Assembly: GCA_001464275.1 (NCBI GenBank)
Contig: LNFL01000098.1
Span: 1-51,254 of the forward strand
DNA from: Actinobacteria bacterium Ga0077560
GTDB lineage: Bacteria > Actinomycetota > Thermoleophilia > Miltoncostaeales > Miltoncostaeaceae
Direction: 5' to 3'
DNA length: 51,254 bases
The first letter of the stretch is position 1; the number at the start of each line of letters is the position of its first letter. Of this stretch, positions 12,458 to 51,254 are shown piece by piece. The position numbers and the translations under genes are program-made. The notes below the pieces were generated by a model that was given only the letters and a program-made list of their open reading frames with translations, searched no databases and was not told where the DNA came from.

Positions 12458-13602
12458 GCCTGCCCCTTCGCGAGTTCCACAGCCTTGGCCGCCGCGGAGA
12501 GCATGGTGCTCTCGACGACCACGTTCGACGGGGCGCGGTCACGGATGATCGCGCGGCCCTCGTCCTCGTTGGTGCCGTCGAGCCGCACCACGATCGGGAG
12601 GGTCGCCCCCAGCTTGTCGAGCGCGGTGAGCAGGCCCTCGGCCACCTCGTCGCAGCGGGTGATGCCGCCGAAGATGTTGATCAGCAGCGCCTTCACCTTG
12701 TCGTCGCTCAGCAGGACCTCGAGGGCGGTGACGACCTCGTCGGCCTTGGACCCGCCGCCCGCGTCCAGGAAGTTCGCGGGACGGCCGCCGGCGAGGGCGA
12801 CCACGTCCAGGGTGCTCATGACCAGGCCGGCACCGTTGCCGAGGATGCCGACGTCGCCGTCGAGCTTCACGTAGGTGACGCCACGCTCGTGGGCCATCCG
12901 CTCCTGCGGGTCGTCCGGGAGGATGTCGCCGACGTCGGCGAGCTCGGTCCGGCGGTACAGGGCGTTGTTGTCGATGGTCACCTTCGCGTCGAGCGCGATC
13001 ACCCGGTCGTCCTCGGTGAGGACCAGCGGGTTGATCTCCACGAGCATCGCGTCGAGCGACACGAACGCGTCGTAGAGGGTGTGGAGGATGGCCATCGTGC
13101 CCTTCATGGCCTCGGCGTCGATGCCGGCGTGATAGACGAGCCACCGCGCGTCATGGGCCTGGAAGCCGATGAGCGGGTCGATGTGGCGACGGACCAGGGC
13201 GCCCGGCTGCGAGACGGCGACCTCTTCGATGTCCATGCCGCCCACCGCGGAGAGCATCACGAGCGGCTTGCGCTCGGCGCGGTCGAACGTGACCGACGCG
13301 TAGTACTCCTTCTTGATCGCGGACGCGGCCTCGATCCAGACGCTCTTCACGACGTGCCCGCGGATGTCCATCCCCAGGATGGCCTTGGCGTGCTCGTACG
13401 CCTCGTCGGGGTTCTCGGCGAGCTTGATGCCGCCGGCCTTGCCCCGGCCGCCGATCTGCACCTGCGCCTTGACCACGACCTTGCCGCCGATCGCCGCGGC
13501 GGCCTCACGGGCCTGCTCCGGCGTCTCGGCGACCTGGCCCTGCGGGATCTCGATCCCGCGGCTCGCGAGCAGGCGCTTTCCCTGATACTCAAGTAGGTCC
13601 AC
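12454..13602 (-). CDS. sucC: Succinyl-CoA ligase (ADP/GDP-forming) beta subunit
   Basis: 382 aa, usual length. It starts [17 protein letters not shown] from GTG 13602 with AAGGAG 4-5 nt before it. The ATP-grasp domain has [22 protein letters not shown]. The C-terminal half has [14 protein letters not shown] and [15 protein letters not shown], the phosphate-binding power-helix region, and ends [12 protein letters not shown]. It couples succinyl-CoA hydrolysis to nucleotide phosphorylation in the TCA cycle as a complex with SucD, encoded immediately downstream with a 4-bp overlap. It is intact, in contrast to sucD. Confidence 0.96.
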
Positions 13603-29020: not shown

Positions 29021-30541
29021 TCAGGCGGTGTGCTCCGCCCCGCCGGTGGCGGCAACCGGCTTGGACGAGCTGTCCTTGCCGGAGCGGAACTTCACGTGGC
29101 TGGCGAGCTGGCTCAGGTGGAGCTCCCCGCCCCGGAAGATCGCGACCGCGGTCCAGAGGAGGCACTTCATGTCGAGCAGCCAGCTCTGGTGGTCCACGTA
29201 GTACTGGTCGATCGCCAGCTTGGTGGGGAGCAGCGTGCTGAGGTAGAAGGCCTCGAAGTCGTCACCGACGAGGTGCTCGAACTCGGAGCGGTAGCGGATC
29301 TGGCTGAGGCCGGTGATGCCCGGGCGGACGGCCAGGACGCTTCGGTACGCCTCGTGGTGGGCCCGGACGTAGCGGGCGTCCTCCGGCCGGGGGCCGACGA
29401 GGCTCATGTCGCCCTTCAGCACGTTCCACAGCTGCGGAAGCTCGTCGAGCTTGGAGTGGGCCAGGAAGCGACCCATCCGGGTGAACCGGTCGTCGTTGTC
29501 GAGCGTGAGGGCGGGGCCCGTCGCGCCGTCGTACATCTTCCGGAACTTGAGCATCTTGAAGGGCTGCTCGTTGCGGCCGATCCGGTTGGCGCGGTAGATG
29601 ACCGGGCCGGGCGAGTCGAGCTTGATCGCCGCCGCCAGGACCGCCCACACCGGCGCGGCGACCAGCAGGAGCGCAGAGGAGAGCACGACGTCGGTCACCC
29701 GCTGGGCGATCTCCGACCCGCGGCGGCTGCTGTGGCTGCTGGCCACGACCACCGGAAGGCCCTCGAGGCGCCGCAGGCTCAGGTTGCCGTCGAGCCCCTC
29801 GAACAGGCGTGACACGACCGCGACCTGCGTGCCGGTGGACCGGCACTCACGGACGGCCTCCTGCAGCTCGTGGTCCGGGGACCCGAGGAACGAGAAGACG
29901 ACCAGGTCGATGCGGTGACGACGGACCACGTCGCTGATCTCGGTGATGTCGCCGAGCGTGGCCGGAACGGGGCCACCGGCCTCCGCGGCATCCGAGTGGT
30001 GGTCGTCGACCGTGCCGACCACGTCGAACCGGCGGCCACGGGGAAGGGACTCCACGAGGTGCTCCGCGACGTCGCCGGCCCCGACCACCAGGACGCGGCA
30101 CGGGAAGCCGAACGCCTTGGACATGATCGCCCCGACGAGCCAGGCCGACGCGACCGAGGCCGCGGCCAGCAGGAACGCGTCCGCCGCGGTAAGGCCCGTG
30201 ATGAGGCCCTGCCCGGCGATCGACAGCACCATCGCGATTGCGAGGACCGCGCCCGCGGCGTGCCCGATGCGGTGCCGGCGAACCAGCACGGGACGGGCCC
30301 GCTCGGTGGGCGGGATGCTCCAGGAGACCACAGCCGCACTGAGGATGCCCATCAGCACCCCGATGCCGAGCCCACTTCGCAGGCTCACATCGGCAAGCGC
30401 AAGCACGATGTTGGAGGCGACCAGGCTGGCGACGACGACCTCGGCGGAGCGCATGAACCGCGGCGAGCGGCTCCGTGCGGTGTCCTCTGCGGTCGCCGTG
30501 GAGAGCTTTGGTTCCTGGCGGAGAGCGGCATGTGTGGTCAT
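29021..30541 (-). CDS. Polyprenyl-phosphate sugar phosphotransferase (WcaJ/WbaP type), initiates the repeat unit
   Basis: 506 aa from ATG 30541. Four to five N-terminal transmembrane helices (about 30-150) precede a Rossmann-like domain (CRVLVVGAGDVAEHLVE, about 155-270). The C-terminal bacterial sugar transferase domain has a membrane helix (VVLSSALLLVAAPVWAVLAA), then KLDSPGPVIYRANRIGRNEQ, FKMLKFRKM, RFTRMGRFLAHSKLDELPQL, NVLKGDMSLVGPRPED and RPGITGLSQIRYRSE. It transfers a hexose-1-phosphate from a UDP-sugar to undecaprenyl phosphate at the inner membrane, the first committed step of the polysaccharide. TATCGT, a -10-like hexamer, ends 7 nt before the ATG and favours this start over the GTG three codons upstream. 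Confidence 0.93.
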   Translation of the reverse strand: MTTHAALRQEPKLSTATAEDTARSRSPRFMRSAEVVVASLVASNIVLALADVSLRSGLGIGVLMGILSAAVVSWSIPPTERARPVLVRRHRIGHAAGAVLAIAMVLSIAGQGLITGLTAADAFLLAAASVASAWLVGAIMSKAFGFPCRVLVVGAGDVAEHLVESLPRGRRFDVVGTVDDHHSDAAEAGGPVPATLGDITEISDVVRRHRIDLVVFSFLGSPDHELQEAVRECRSTGTQVAVVSRLFEGLDGNLSLRRLEGLPVVVASSHSSRRGSEIAQRVTDVVLSSALLLVAAPVWAVLAAAIKLDSPGPVIYRANRIGRNEQPFKMLKFRKMYDGATGPALTLDNDDRFTRMGRFLAHSKLDELPQLWNVLKGDMSLVGPRPEDARYVRAHHEAYRSVLAVRPGITGLSQIRYRSEFEHLVGDDFEAFYLSTLLPTKLAIDQYYVDHQSWLLDMKCLLWTAVAIFRGGELHLSQLASHVKFRSGKDSSSKPVAATGGAEHTA

Positions 30542-30548
30542 GTGGGCC

Positions 30549-30554
30549 ACGATA
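30549..30554 (-). promoter_or_regulatory. -10-like TATCGT for the sugar transferase gene
   Basis: Minus-strand TATCGT ends 7 nt before ATG 30541, consistent with a leaderless mRNA. Confidence 0.45.
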
Positions 30555-30761
30555 GGTCGCCCCCGGAGCCCCTCGCGCGGGTCGGTCGGCTAGGTCTTCC
30601 TGACCCGGCGGAGGGTTTCGCCGGTCCCTCACGACGGTATACTGCGATTTTGGCAAGTTTCGGGGGTCGTCCGAGGCCCCTACGACCGCCCGCCCCCGCG
30701 CAGGCTTTGGCGCACAGCGGCGTTGGAGTGATCCGGGCTTTGCGAGGTGCAGCAGCTGTTT

Positions 30762-30782
30762 CGGCGCCCCGCAGGGGCGCCG
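30762..30782 (+). terminator. Terminator-type hairpin, repeat arm 1
   Basis: CGGCGCCCC-GCA-GGGGCGCCG followed by TCTGCTTTTCG on the plus strand. No plus-strand gene ends upstream of it, so it belongs to the repeat rather than to a transcription unit. Confidence 0.6.
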
Positions 30783-30978
30783 TCTGCTTTTCGCCTGTGG
30801 TCGTGATCGGGCTTCTTATGGCCTGGTCGACTCGCGCAAACGCTGCCCATGGCGCGTCTGAGGGCGTTGGCCCCAGGAACCACGGCTTGCGCCTGCGCTG
30901 CCACTGAGCATTTGGTCCTCGCCATCCACAAGGGCTGCCTCGCATCCCCGGACAGTGGTGCACCGCAGCCATGAGTTG

Positions 30979-30997
30979 CCGCGCCGGGACGGCGCGG
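30979..30997. other. Core hairpin of repeat copy A
   Basis: CCGCGCC-GGGAC-GGCGCGG is conserved identically in copy B at 51083-51101, followed in both by GTTTCCACCCCTGGCGCGCT. Confidence 0.55.
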
Positions 30998-31119
30998 TTT
31001 CCACCCCTGGCGCGCTCCCGAGGACAGCCGAGGCAATTCGCCTATCGGTACCCGTGAGGACGCTGACCCCGGACGGCCGCAGAGCACCCAATCCGGTGGA
31101 CGACTGAATGGAGTCCCCA

Positions 31120-31137
31120 CGGCGCATGGATGCGCCG
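31120..31137. other. Covarying palindrome of repeat copy A
   Basis: CGGCGCAT-GG-ATGCGCCG. The equivalent in copy B (51223-51240) is CGGCTCAT-GG-ATGAGCCG. One G:C pair has become T:A, so pairing is kept. Confidence 0.6.
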
Positions 31138-31269
31138 TTCGAACCAACTGCAGGCAGCCGCAAGGCGTGGTTCCTGGGGCAAACGTCGCCGGACGCCAAT
31201 CAGCGACTCGCTTGCGCGAGTCGAAACGGCGATGAGAAGCCGCTGAAACGACCACAAACGAAAAGCAAA

Positions 31270-31290
31270 CGGCGCCCCTGCGGGGCGCCG
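31270..31290 (-). terminator. Terminator-type hairpin, repeat arm 2 (inverted)
   Basis: The same 9-bp stem as arm 1; read on the minus strand it is followed by TTTGCTTTTCG. It lies downstream of the DegT operon in the direction of its transcription. Confidence 0.6.
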
Positions 31291-31305
31291 AAGGAACTAC
31301 TGCAC

Positions 31306-31385
31306 CACTCCAGGCCCGGATCACTCCAAGAACGGATCACTCCAGGCCCGGATCACTCCAAGAACGGATCACTCCGAGCCCGGAC
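31306..31385. repeat. Five tandem 16-bp units (CACTCCAGGCCCGGAT / CACTCCAAGAACGGAT)
   Basis: Units start at 31306, 31322, 31338, 31354 and 31370 and alternate between two versions, giving a 32-bp higher-order period. The unit is the reverse complement of the outer edge of the large repeat's arms (GGAGTGATCCGGGC). Confidence 0.8.
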
Positions 31386-31431
31386 TACGCAACGCCCGGA
31401 CCTTCTCCCTGTCGCCGGTCCGAAAAGCAAA

Positions 31432-31452
31432 CGGCGCCCCTGCGGGGCGCCG
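31432..31452 (-). terminator. Intrinsic terminator of the aminotransferase/nucleotidyltransferase operon
   Basis: On the minus strand CGGCGCCCC-GCA-GGGGCGCCG is followed by TTTGCTTTTCG, 65 nt past the DegT stop. It is the same hairpin as in the large repeat, with a partial arm (GGAGTGATCC..GGCTTT) beside it. Confidence 0.75.
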
Positions 31453-31516
31453 TTCTACAACTACGCCAGCTGAAAGCCGGGATCACTCCAGGTGACCGCC
31501 GTCGATGCGGCTCGTC

Positions 31517-32644
31517 CTACGCGTTCACCATTGCGAAGAGGCCCAGGACCCGGTCGACGTCGCTGTCGGCCATTGCGGGGTACAGGGGGAGGGTCACCTC
31601 ACGGGCGGCGTAGTCCTCGGTGATCGGGAGGGCGGCCTGCGGCTGGAAGACCTTGAACGAGTGGACCGGCTGGTAGTGGACCGAGGTCTGGATGCCGGCG
31701 TCGGCGGCGGCCGCGCGGAGGCGGTCCCGCTCCTCGTTGCTGGGGGTGACCAGCGGCATGATGTGGCAGGAGCTCATCTCGTCCAGCTCGGCCGAGAACG
31801 GGACGAACCCGACCTCGGGGGTCCGCTCGAGGCCCAGCCGGTAACGGCCGACCAGTTCGCGGCGACGGGCGAGCATGGCGGGGAGCTTGTCCAGCTGCAC
31901 CAGGCCGAGGGCGGCCTCCAGCTCGCTGGGACGGTAGTTGTAGCCCCGCTCGATGACGTCGTACCCGCTGGCGTGGCCGCGCTCGCGGTCCCAGGAGGTG
32001 GCGGTCATCCCGTGGGCGCGCAGCAGGCGCATCCGGCGGACGAGCTCCTCGTCGTCGGAGGTGCACATGCCGCCCTCGCCGGTCACGAGGTTCTTGTTCG
32101 AGAAGAACGAGAAGCAGGAGATGTCGCCGAGCGAGCCGGCCGGGCCCTCGGCGGAGCGGGCGCCGGGAGAGTGCGCGGCGTCCTCCACCAGGGCGAGCCC
32201 GTGGGCGTCGCTGAGCGCGCGCAGCGCGACCATGTCGGCGACGTAGCCGGCGTAGTGCACGGTGCAGATCGCCTTGGTGCGCGGACCGATGAGGGCGCGG
32301 ACGGCCTCCGGGTCCATGAGGGGGCACTCCGGCGACACGATGTCGGCGAACACCGGGGTGGCGCCCGTGTAGGCCACGGCGTTGGCGGTCGCGACGAAGG
32401 TGAGGGACGGGACGATGACCTCGTCGCCCGGGCCCAGGTCCAGCGCGGCGAACGCCAGGTGGAGCGCGGCGGTGCACGAGGACGCCATCACGCCGTGCTT
32501 GGAGCCGACGAACGTGGAGAACGCCTGCTCGAACTGCGCGGTCCGGGGGCCCATGGTGAGCCAGCCGGAGCGGACGACGTCCGCCACGGCCTGCACCTCG
32601 GCCTCGTCGAAGCTGGGGGCGGAAAGGGGAAGCTGGTCGCTCAC
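31517..32644 (-). CDS. DegT/DnrJ/EryC1/StrS-family nucleotide-sugar aminotransferase
   Basis: 375 aa from GTG 32644. It is PLP-dependent with aspartate-aminotransferase fold. Seen here are VMASSCTAALHLAF (phosphate-cup SCTAA), EVIVPSLTFVATANAV, VHYAGYVADM, ALVEDAAHSPGAR (Asp that contacts PLP) and SFFSNKNLVTGEGG, with the internal-aldimine Lys at residue 184. Such enzymes put an amino group on a 3- or 4-keto nucleotide sugar. It overlaps the nucleotidyltransferase gene by GTGA, so the two are made together to supply an amino sugar. The keto-sugar precursor could come from the SDR encoded at 27828. Regiochemistry unknown. Confidence 0.93.
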   Translation of the reverse strand: MSDQLPLSAPSFDEAEVQAVADVVRSGWLTMGPRTAQFEQAFSTFVGSKHGVMASSCTAALHLAFAALDLGPGDEVIVPSLTFVATANAVAYTGATPVFADIVSPECPLMDPEAVRALIGPRTKAICTVHYAGYVADMVALRALSDAHGLALVEDAAHSPGARSAEGPAGSLGDISCFSFFSNKNLVTGEGGMCTSDDEELVRRMRLLRAHGMTATSWDRERGHASGYDVIERGYNYRPSELEAALGLVQLDKLPAMLARRRELVGRYRLGLERTPEVGFVPFSAELDEMSSCHIMPLVTPSNEERDRLRAAAADAGIQTSVHYQPVHSFKVFQPQAALPITEDYAAREVTLPLYPAMADSDVDRVLGLFAMVNA

Positions 32645-35714: not shown

Positions 35715-35717
35715 CAA
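35688..35717 (+). promoter_or_regulatory. Possible promoter TTGACC-N18-TAGCAA for the second beta-helix gene
   Basis: TTGACC (35688-35693) lies 18 bp before TAGCAA (35712-35717), within the last codons of the PAP2 frame. It would give a leader of about 140 nt before ATG 35866. Confidence 0.3.
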
Positions 35718-35865
35718 TGCGGAGCACTCGCTCGGCATGTCCGGGTGGCGCGCCCGGCCGATGCCCCCAGGTCGTGGTGCGAGGCGCGGCCCGGTGGCGC
35801 TCCGATGGAGTCGCCGCCGCCGTCCCACCGCCCGGGGTGCTCCATGCCCACCGAAAGGACGCCGC

Positions 35866-37312
35866 ATGCCCGTCGGGACCCGGCCGATGCTCGTGAAATC
35901 CCCCCTTCTGTTCGCCGCGACCTGCCTCGCGGGGGTGGCTGCCCTCGCAGGACCGGCGGCCGCCCAGCAGTACGGGGGCTCGACGCCCACCACCACGGCG
36001 TCCACGCCGGCCCCGCCACCGGCGGCCGCACCCATCGACGTGGTCCAGGTCGCGGCGTCGTGCGACAAGTTCGCCGCGCCGAACGGCAGCGACAGCGCAC
36101 CCGGCACCGCCGGCGCCCCGTTCCGCACGGCGCAGAAGCTGCAGGACTCCCTCAGCGCCGGCCAGACCGGCTGCCTCAAGCCCGGCGCGGTGTTCACCGG
36201 CCGGCTGCGGGGCAACAAGAGCGGCCAGAACGGGCGCCCGATCGTGATGACCAGCGGCCCCGGCTCGGGCCGCGCCACGATCCTGGGTGAGATCTACATC
36301 CCGGACGGCACGAGCGACATCACGTACCTGAACCTCGTCATCAACGGCCGCGACGCGTTCCGCGTGAACCCCAGCGTGAACGGCGACCGCATCACCTTCC
36401 GCAACAACGAGATCACCGACGAGCGCAACGGGATCTGCTTCCACATCGGCAAGCCCGGCGAGGGTGTGGCCGAGGGCATCATCATCGACGGCAACCGCAT
36501 CCACGGCTGCGGGCGGCTGCCCGCCACCGGCTTCGACCACGGCGTCTACCTGAACACCACCCGCAACGTGCGGATCACCAACAACTACATCTACGACAAC
36601 GCCGACTACGGCATCCACCTCTACCCGAACGCCCAGAACACCTACATCGCGAACAACGTGATCGACGGCAACGGGCGCGGGATCACCTTCTCGGGGCAAC
36701 GTCGTGGTGAACAACATCATCAGCAACTCCAAGGACACCACGAACATCGAGTCCTACTGGGGCGGCCCCGTCGGCACCGGCAACCGTGCCGACGACAACT
36801 GCCTGTGGAACGGCGCCAAGGGCAACATCGGCGCGCAGCGCGGCTTCAGCCTCTCGGGCAACAGGGTGGCGAACCCGATGTTCGTGAACCGGGCCGCGGC
36901 GAACTTCGCCCTCCTGCCCGGCAGCCCGTGCGCGGGCAAGGGCCCGGGCAACCCGCTGCCCGGGGGCGGCGGGTCCGGCGGCTCGGGCGGCGGCAGCGGC
37001 GGGTCCGGCGGCGCGAGCGGCGGCGGGGCCCCCGCGCCCGCGGTCAAGGCCGCCCGCCTGAAGCTGGGAACCTCCTGGATCGCATCGAACCGCCTGCGGG
37101 TCTCCGCCACCGTTCGGGTGGCCGGGCGTGTCACGATGTCGGCCCGCATCGGCCGGCGCGTCGTCGGCAGCTGCACGCGGCGGGCCCTCGCGGGTCGCAA
37201 GGTGAGCTGTGTCTTCACCTCGCGCTCCCGGGTCACCGTCACCGTGTCGCTCAGGCCGAACAACACGCGTCTCGGCATCACGCGGAAGAAGATCACCCGC
37301 AACCCGAAGTAG
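35866..37312 (+). pseudogene. Secreted right-handed beta-helix protein, frameshifted; paralogue of 21449-23266
   Basis: ATG 35866 has AAAGGA 7 nt upstream. A signal peptide and a short Thr/Pro/Ala linker precede a beta-helix domain almost parallel to the gene at 21449: ITFRNNEITDERNGICFHIG, CGRLPATGFDHGVYLN, YGIHLYPNAQNTYIANNVI. After TCG at 36691-36693 the frame shifts; the remainder (VVVNNIISNSK.., CLWNGAKGNIG, NPMFVNRAAANFAL) continues from GGC 36695. Compared with the paralogue, about eight residues (EGGLVSSG) are missing at the join, implying loss of 3n+2 nt. After a Gly/Ser linker the C-terminus carries a beta module with a Cys pair (CTRRALAGRKVSC) like the LOX proteins. Probable carbohydrate-binding or -cleaving surface protein. 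Confidence 0.8.
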
Positions 37313-50791: not shown

Positions 50792-50837
50792 TCCGGGCGC
50801 TCTGCGATCCGGGCTTTGCGAGGTGCAGCAGTTGTCT

Positions 50838-50858
50838 CGGCGCCCCGCAGGGGCGCCG
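50838..50858 (+). terminator. Terminator-type hairpin in repeat copy B
   Basis: CGGCGCCCC-GCA-GGGGCGCCG followed by ACTGCTTTTCG, 46 nt past the glyoxalase-like stop. It is probably the terminator of the thioesterase/glyoxalase operon. GCAGT/ACTGC flanks extend the pairing. Confidence 0.7.
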
Positions 50859-51222
50859 ACTGCTTTTCGTTTGTGGTCGTTCTCGTTGCTTTTCATCGCC
50901 TGGTCGACTCGCGCAAGCGCTGCCCATGTGCGCGTCTGGGGGCGTTGGCCCCAGGAACAACGCCTTGCGGCTGCGCTGCCACTGAGCCCAGCTCCCCATC
51001 CATGGGTCGCCCTCATCCATTCCTCGCCGTCCACAAGGGCTGCCGTGCCATCCCGATCAGTGGTGCACCGCATGATGAGGCGCCGCGCCGGGACGGCGCG
51101 GTTTCCACCCCTGGCGCGCTATCCGGTCAGCTCACCTGCAATTCGACTATCGGTACCCGTGTGGACGCTGATCCCAGACGGCCGCAGAGCACCCAATCCG
51201 GTGGACGACTGCCAAATGCAAT

Positions 51223-51240
51223 CGGCTCATGGATGAGCCG
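51223..51240. other. Covarying palindrome of repeat copy B
   Basis: CGGCTCAT-GG-ATGAGCCG, counterpart of 31120-31137 in copy A with a compensated base-pair change. Confidence 0.6.
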
Positions 51241-51254
51241 AGCTGGTTGGTTGC

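Follow-up and report, generated by a model that had tools for sequence, protein, structure and literature searches.

BIME and REP sequences of enterobacteria lie between genes, past gene ends, and combine two unit types, palindromes of about 35 nt, in inverted order and in mosaic combinations. MITEs and foldback elements, such as Correia and RUP, are non-coding, dispersed and bounded by inverted arms. CsrA activity is restrained either by decoy small RNAs or by FliW. The decoys CsrB/CsrC and RsmX/Y/Z carry GGA-loop hairpins that mimic CsrA targets; they are the products of one to three genes devoted to them, and each offers many GGA sites. The flagellin mRNA leader, that of flaA in Campylobacter and of hag in Bacillus, is both a target and an antagonist of CsrA. 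Passages of PMC4894983 describe the CANGGANG apical hexaloop as a high-affinity target of CsrA/RsmE. Parts of PMC7652899 report that RsmE contacts an ANGGAN hexaloop, that in-vitro selection with CsrA yielded RUACARGGAUGU, and that hairpins selected in this way mostly have four pairs or fewer. These sources also describe two CsrA sites, one over the Shine-Dalgarno sequence, in the leaders of hag of Bacillus (PMC7652899) and flaA of Campylobacter (PMC4894983).

The repeat family described here shares features with each of these systems. Like BIME/REP sequences, it has two unit types in an inverted mosaic arrangement between genes and past gene ends, but its unit is a 190-nt multi-hairpin structure and neither host genome encodes a RAYT-type transposase. 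Like MITEs and foldback elements, it is non-coding, dispersed and has inverted terminal repeats, but its arms are imperfect and internally structured, its ends are ragged, and the unit also occurs singly or in direct tandem. It shares GGA-loop hairpins with the decoy RNAs but offers one hexaloop per unit in dozens of dispersed units, and its host, unlike those of CsrB/RsmZ-type systems, is a FliW-bearing actinobacterium. In the flagellin leader of its hosts, as in Campylobacter and Bacillus, there are two GGA hexaloop sites, and one of them covers the ribosome site; the repeats, unlike such leaders, are mostly found past gene ends.

The element in the window

The window, the whole 51,254-nt stretch of DNA that was analyzed, is contig C98 of a 3.8-Mb MAG (G000; 193 contigs, 84% complete, 1.9% contamination). 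An element of 607 nt, copy A, occupies positions 30723-31329 between a sugar transferase gene and a DegT aminotransferase gene. The original prediction placed it in the only large gene-free gap of the window. This is roughly right: a simple gene caller placed nothing in 30455-31516, but nothing in 35715-36703 either, possibly because of a missed gene. The features of copy A and of a second copy, B, are as follows.

30723..30738, plus strand: outer 16-nt iteron TTGGAGTGATCCGGGC at the left end of copy A; an inverted match to the right-end iterons that recurs at outer ends elsewhere
30762..30793, plus strand: inward-directed intrinsic-terminator-like hairpin on the left, with a T-rich tail (terminator scan site 30762-30782); in most aligned copies
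30811..30957, minus strand: copy A unit of the L type, with its 5' end inside (profile search and covariance model; model match 30811-30940)
30979..30997, plus strand: inner hairpin CCGCGCCGGGACGGCGCGG between the units (alignment; identical in 14 of 15 copies, with one base different in L007)
31048..31240, plus strand: R-type unit of copy A, 5' end inside (profile search and covariance model; model match 31082-31240)
31119..31138, plus strand: P2 hairpin of the copy A R unit, ACGGCGC-[ATGGAT]-GCGCCGT, with the CANGGANG hexaloop
31157..31166, plus strand: P3 hairpin GCC-[GCAA]-GGC with a GNRA tetraloop; other units have GGC-GNRA-GCC
31259..31290, minus strand: right intrinsic-terminator-like hairpin with T-rich tail, pointing inward (terminator scan site 31290-31270)
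31306..31400, plus strand: tandem 16-nt iterons GGAGTGATCCGGGC(TT) at the right end of copy A (repeat family D1)
31421..31490, no strand assigned: additional outer end module, a hairpin plus iteron (repeat comparison)
50806..51254, plus strand: copy B, cut by the contig end
50838..50858, plus strand: left terminator-like hairpin of copy B (read from the sequence and the alignment of copies)
50888..51061, minus strand: L-type unit of copy B (profile search and covariance model)
50991..51010, minus strand: P2 hairpin of the copy B L unit, GCGACCC-[ATGGAT]-GGGGAGC, with tandem G.A (position read from the sequence)
51153..51254, plus strand: R-type unit of copy B, truncated, with a P2 hexaloop hairpin at 51222-51241

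The inverted arms that had been predicted around a core are real. The outer pair (30723-30804 with 31248-31329) spans 82 nt at 87% complementarity, and further inside 33 nt pair at 82% and 43 nt at 84%. The observation is confirmed, and the structure goes beyond arms around a core. A profile search identified the left and right halves as copies of one unit of about 190 nt, and copy A consists of two such units, diverged and structured, placed head to head with their 5' ends inside. Each outer end carries an inward-pointing hairpin that is rich in G+C and has a T-rich tail, and beyond these hairpins are 16-nt iterons. The prediction of a terminator-type hairpin in each arm was correct: three terminator-like sites were found in 30450-31560 (0.6 expected from shuffles), two of which are the copy A arms. 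Copy B starts at 50806, as proposed, and is cut off at 51254; the blocks of identity noticed between the two copies reach 38 nt in the alignment of copies. That alignment also shows that the right ends of copies are ragged. The GGAGTGATCCGGGC(TT) iterons are present at the outer ends of other copies too, and some units in the related genome G001 have GGCTTCTCATGGCCT-like iterons there instead.

No Pfam or Rfam family accounts for the element. Its three ORFs had no Pfam match at E 0.1 and are fragmented by stops and frame jumps in 14 other copies, so a hidden protein gene was rejected and the predicted lack of a conserved reading frame stands. Rfam searches gave no match at the curated threshold for the whole window. 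For copy A and for three G001 loci no match came close to it: copy A gave two sub-threshold matches that resemble chance, the G001 loci none.

A repeat family confined to one genus

Both predicted copies are present in the window, but they belong to a larger family. Searching G000 with the 607-nt element returned 80 matches, which, grouped with profile and covariance-model matches, define 20 loci on 19 contigs. Inverted pairs are found at 15 of these loci (copy B being incomplete), and the five others hold single or partial units (C173, C185, C111 and C190) or a direct double (C116). Two loci, copy B and C190, run into a contig end. The original prediction was to be abandoned if there were only two copies or if the element lay inside a protein gene; the 20 loci lie between called genes where examined. 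A recent plain duplication was rejected, since the 14 longest other matches are only 74-84% identical to copy A.

Among 60 relatives, a nucleotide search found clear copies in G001 alone, the MAG of Thermoleophilia bacterium SJ49 and the only congener examined; a 30-nt match in G029 looks like chance. The covariance-model search that had been proposed matched 35 units in G000 and 22 in G001; 40 other genomes of the family, from 11 other genera, gave no match, with filters that lose some weak matches. An exact degenerate pattern of the unit, run against one genome per species for 84,980 species, matched five contigs, all from SJ49, in a scan that possibly did not include the window's genome. 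A plasmid or phage origin was rejected: the element had no match in plasmids or phages, and the exact unit pattern had none in viral contigs. Several contigs of both MAGs stop inside the repeat (the window at 51254, C190 in G000, and C60/C121, C36 and C56 in G001), so the true copy numbers are probably higher. The family is a genuine, structured repeat and, within the scope of these searches, is confined to one genus.

The units are arranged differently in the two species. Units in G001 occur singly, in direct tandem (C118, C22, and C60/C121 at a period of about 260 bp) and as inverted pairs (on C53 and, in decayed form, on C11); units without an inverted partner are common. In a tree of 53 units, cut from the 57 model matches after excluding the four weakest G001 matches, all 18 G001 units group together (support 0.90), and the G000 units form two types, L and R. 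The G000 unit L003 (C162:38992-39147) is placed beside the G001 clade (support 0.97), as if it had been retained or transferred. The species-specific clades indicate either concerted evolution of the copies or separate amplification in each species.

Covarying helices and a conserved hexaloop

We aligned 37 of 38 units (one partial unit was dropped; short matches and the left unit of copy A were not among them). Covariation is seen in three helices, namely a closing helix and the stems of P2 and P3. Both sides have changed in 65 cells, compared with 19.6 in shuffles, and 97.9% of cells are paired, compared with 90.9% in shuffles and 33.7-47.2% in slid versions. The covariation score and the number of both-side-change cells exceed those of all 500 shuffles, which ignore relatedness, and of every slid version. 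Two other counts do not stand out: five pairs with change on both sides were matched by 107 of 500 shuffles, and ten further pair types by 498 of 500. P3 has the form GSC-loop-GSC; its loop is GNRA in 33 of 37 rows, and the other four have GUCA. The original prediction offered a MITE-like foldback element or a large structured RNA. This interpretation is partly supported: each half has evidence behind it, in the dispersed foldback-like arrangement and in the covarying hairpins, and the head-to-head unit and its hexaloop had been missed.

The P2 loop has the form C[ANGGAN]G in 48 of the 53 units, 47 with at least three stem pairs. For CANGGANG the count is 48, compared with a mean of six and a maximum of 13 in shuffles. 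The loops are AUGGAU (34), AUGGAC (6), AAGGAU (5) and, once each, ACGGAU, AGGGAG and AUGGAG. Three of the five units without a hexaloop lost the stretch, including the left unit of copy A through a 27-nt deletion at 30908/30909; two have changed bases. The stem exists in six compensated versions, with each outer position paired throughout, and one degenerate version. Its two middle pairs are either Watson-Crick or, in 28 of 48 stems, tandem G.A. Because tandem G.A would be C.U on the opposite strand, the conserved form is that of one strand. ANGGA likewise occurs 57 times on the sense strand of units and twice on the opposite strand. Elsewhere in the window, over 101,580 strand-bases, there are 11 comparable hairpins with at least three pairs, three with at least four, and none with the G.A extension. 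One hairpin outside the element, near 12540 on the plus strand, has an ACGGAT CANGGANG hexaloop on an 8-pair stem antisense to a called gene and is probably a chance occurrence.

Two comparisons of the strands do not favor RNA on the sense strand. Among pairs predicted on both strands, eight G.U and 12 A.C variants give no sign of selection on a sense-strand RNA; the test is neutral to slightly against it. The consensus folding energy is equal on both strands (-13.4 and -13.6). Folding of whole units put the loop-closing pair at a probability of 0.5 or more in 27 of 34 G000 units but only 3 of 14 G001 units; the tandem G.A stem may be scored too low by the energy model. GGA is not enriched in units overall (204 observed, 206 expected from shuffles).

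CsrA and a probable flagellin circuit

Both genomes encode a CsrA protein (PF02599, 79 aa) that matches CsrA chains of known structure, including 2jpp, which is RsmE. Both also encode FliW, found in G001 and matched in G000 at 89% identity. In each species csrA is followed by a flagellin gene, recognized by a Flagellin_N match in G001 and by a similar start in G000, where the contig ends soon after.

G000 C110:61979 onward: csrA-flagellin locus (L109)
G001 C165:20066 onward: csrA-flagellin locus (L108)

The stretch between csrA and flagellin contains, in both species, two C[ANGGAN]G hairpins, CCGC-ACGGAT-GCGG and GATTC-AAGGAG-GAATC, the second of which lies over the Shine-Dalgarno sequence. 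These loci likely represent a CsrA-FliW-flagellin circuit in Thermoleophilia. A csrA locus from another genus of the family (L112) likewise has two hexaloop hairpins before flagellin. Five other csrA loci had no flagellin by a simple pattern; two hexaloop hairpins lie elsewhere at L113, one is found at L115, and there are none in L110, L111 and L114. The hairpin at L115 (G007, position 1484) has a CANGGANG hexaloop and immediately precedes the start codon of csrA, a place where csrA might regulate itself.

The presence of hexaloop hairpins in both the repeat and the flagellin leader indicates that the repeat loop is the motif of the organism's likely native CsrA sites, and the loop ACGGAU is common to one repeat unit and the leader. 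Co-occurrence of the repeat with CsrA was discarded as support because it is unspecific: 18 of 40 other family genomes encode CsrA and contain no repeat.

Placement and alternative explanations

We examined the neighbors at 18 of the 20 G000 loci and at 15 G001 loci, 33 in all, with a simple, unpublished codon-score gene caller that skips ORFs inside the element. Genes were called on both sides at 27 loci, of which 17 have neighbors in the same direction, seven convergent and three divergent; overlaps with the element are at most 28 nt. At 15 of the 18 G000 loci, the element is no more than 60 nt from a neighbor's stop codon.

Five sites were informative in comparing the species, one common to both and four occupied in one only. 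The copy A site in G001 (flanks 83 and 86% identical) has one diverged unit in the place and orientation of copy A's left unit, with a short inverted match that is apparently a trace of the other end. G001 has no unit at the L013 and L006 sites, and G000 lacks one at the site of the G001 pair on C53. A degenerate unit (L106, G001 C165:17514-17668) lies just after a terminator-like hairpin behind fliW and is absent from the G000 counterpart. At L003 the species align on one side only. Three unit-free counterpart sites contain other DNA, and clean empty sites with target duplications were not obtained. Together with the species-specific clades, the sites occupied in one species only suggest that the repeat spread within each genome by a mover or by gene conversion.

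These observations make a passive BIME- or foldback-like intergenic repeat a serious rival, which we consider possible, though rather less than an even prospect. Such a repeat would be non-autonomous, spread by a mover and homogenized by gene conversion, and would be tolerated because it inserts just past stop codons and brings terminators along; its hexaloop would be coincidental or the recognition hairpin of the mover. The species-specific clades, the four sites occupied in one species, the nearby stop codons, and the occurrence of units as pairs, tandem arrays and singles with end iterons all agree with this explanation. It does not account for the constancy of A-N-GGA-N while both N positions vary and the stem is rebuilt. 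The ragged right ends and the failure to establish a target duplication also count against it, as does the lack of a mover in a search for the Y1 family only: the Y1 (TnpA_REP/RAYT-type) transposase PF01797 is absent from G000 (84% complete) and G001, with controls positive in 5 of 14. A RAYT-driven REP was rejected on this basis.

Placement at gene ends, and the two inward terminator-like hairpins of copy A that recur in most G000 pairs, would also suit a portable bidirectional transcription terminator domesticated between genes, with the units as ballast. We regard this as improbable because the common, covarying part is the unit rather than the terminator, and because the modules at the outer ends of copy A (query 1-61 and 521-607) had no match among the G001 candidates scored, while the unit did. 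Long inverted arms, palindromic hairpins, iterons and a G.U versus A.C test that does not favor sense RNA could point to a DNA-level structured site, a cruciform or protein-binding array serving, for example, nucleoid or chromosome organization, but the strand-specific hexaloop, the tandem G.A conserved on one strand only, and the many partnerless units in G001 make this quite unlikely.

A possible role as dispersed CsrA decoys

We tentatively favor the explanation that this is a genus-specific, mobile-like repeat whose unit RNAs, if transcribed, are predicted to bind CsrA and act as dispersed decoys. Nearly all units retain a hairpin loop predicted to be a CsrA target, and this is the sequence argument that transcribed units would likely be such decoys. 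Each unit would be read outward from the center of the pair, or would form the 3' portion of a transcript begun upstream. CsrA would bind the P2 hexaloop of the unit RNA, and the unit RNAs would compete for CsrA with the flagellin leader and other targets. The inward terminator-like hairpins would stop read-through from neighbors, insulating the pair and making insertion beside gene ends harmless.

Several observations count against this decoy explanation. Compared with CsrB/RsmZ-type decoys, the csrA gene is present and the sequence contains a CANGGANG hexaloop hairpin, but each unit has a single hexaloop instead of many GGA sites per RNA. Only tandem arrays offer several, and the left unit of copy A has none. 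In the P2 stems, 19 of 48 have seven contiguous pairs and are longer than most selected CsrA hairpins. The G.U/A.C test, the equal folding of both strands, the weak folding of G001 units and the lack of GGA enrichment also count against the explanation, as do the 18 family genomes with CsrA and no repeat and the two covariation counts that do not stand out. A scan of copy A for sigma-70-type sites recognized no sigma-70-like promoter. In G000 pairs with both end hairpins, transcripts from the neighbors would be expected to stop before the units, which counts against decoys.

Whatever part CsrA plays, the family is a genus-restricted, structured interspersed repeat that is undescribed in the literature searched; we found no description of it in open-licence literature with limited search wording. 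A further step, which we consider possible but less likely than not, is that dozens of unit RNAs titrate CsrA through their CANGGANG hexaloops as a distributed sponge, so that RNA and FliW antagonists would coexist and a mobile-like repeat would act as a global regulator. If true, a FliW-bearing actinobacterium would carry dozens of dispersed CsrA-type hairpins, with RNA and protein antagonists of CsrA side by side, and an interspersed repeat would have been recruited to a global regulatory role.
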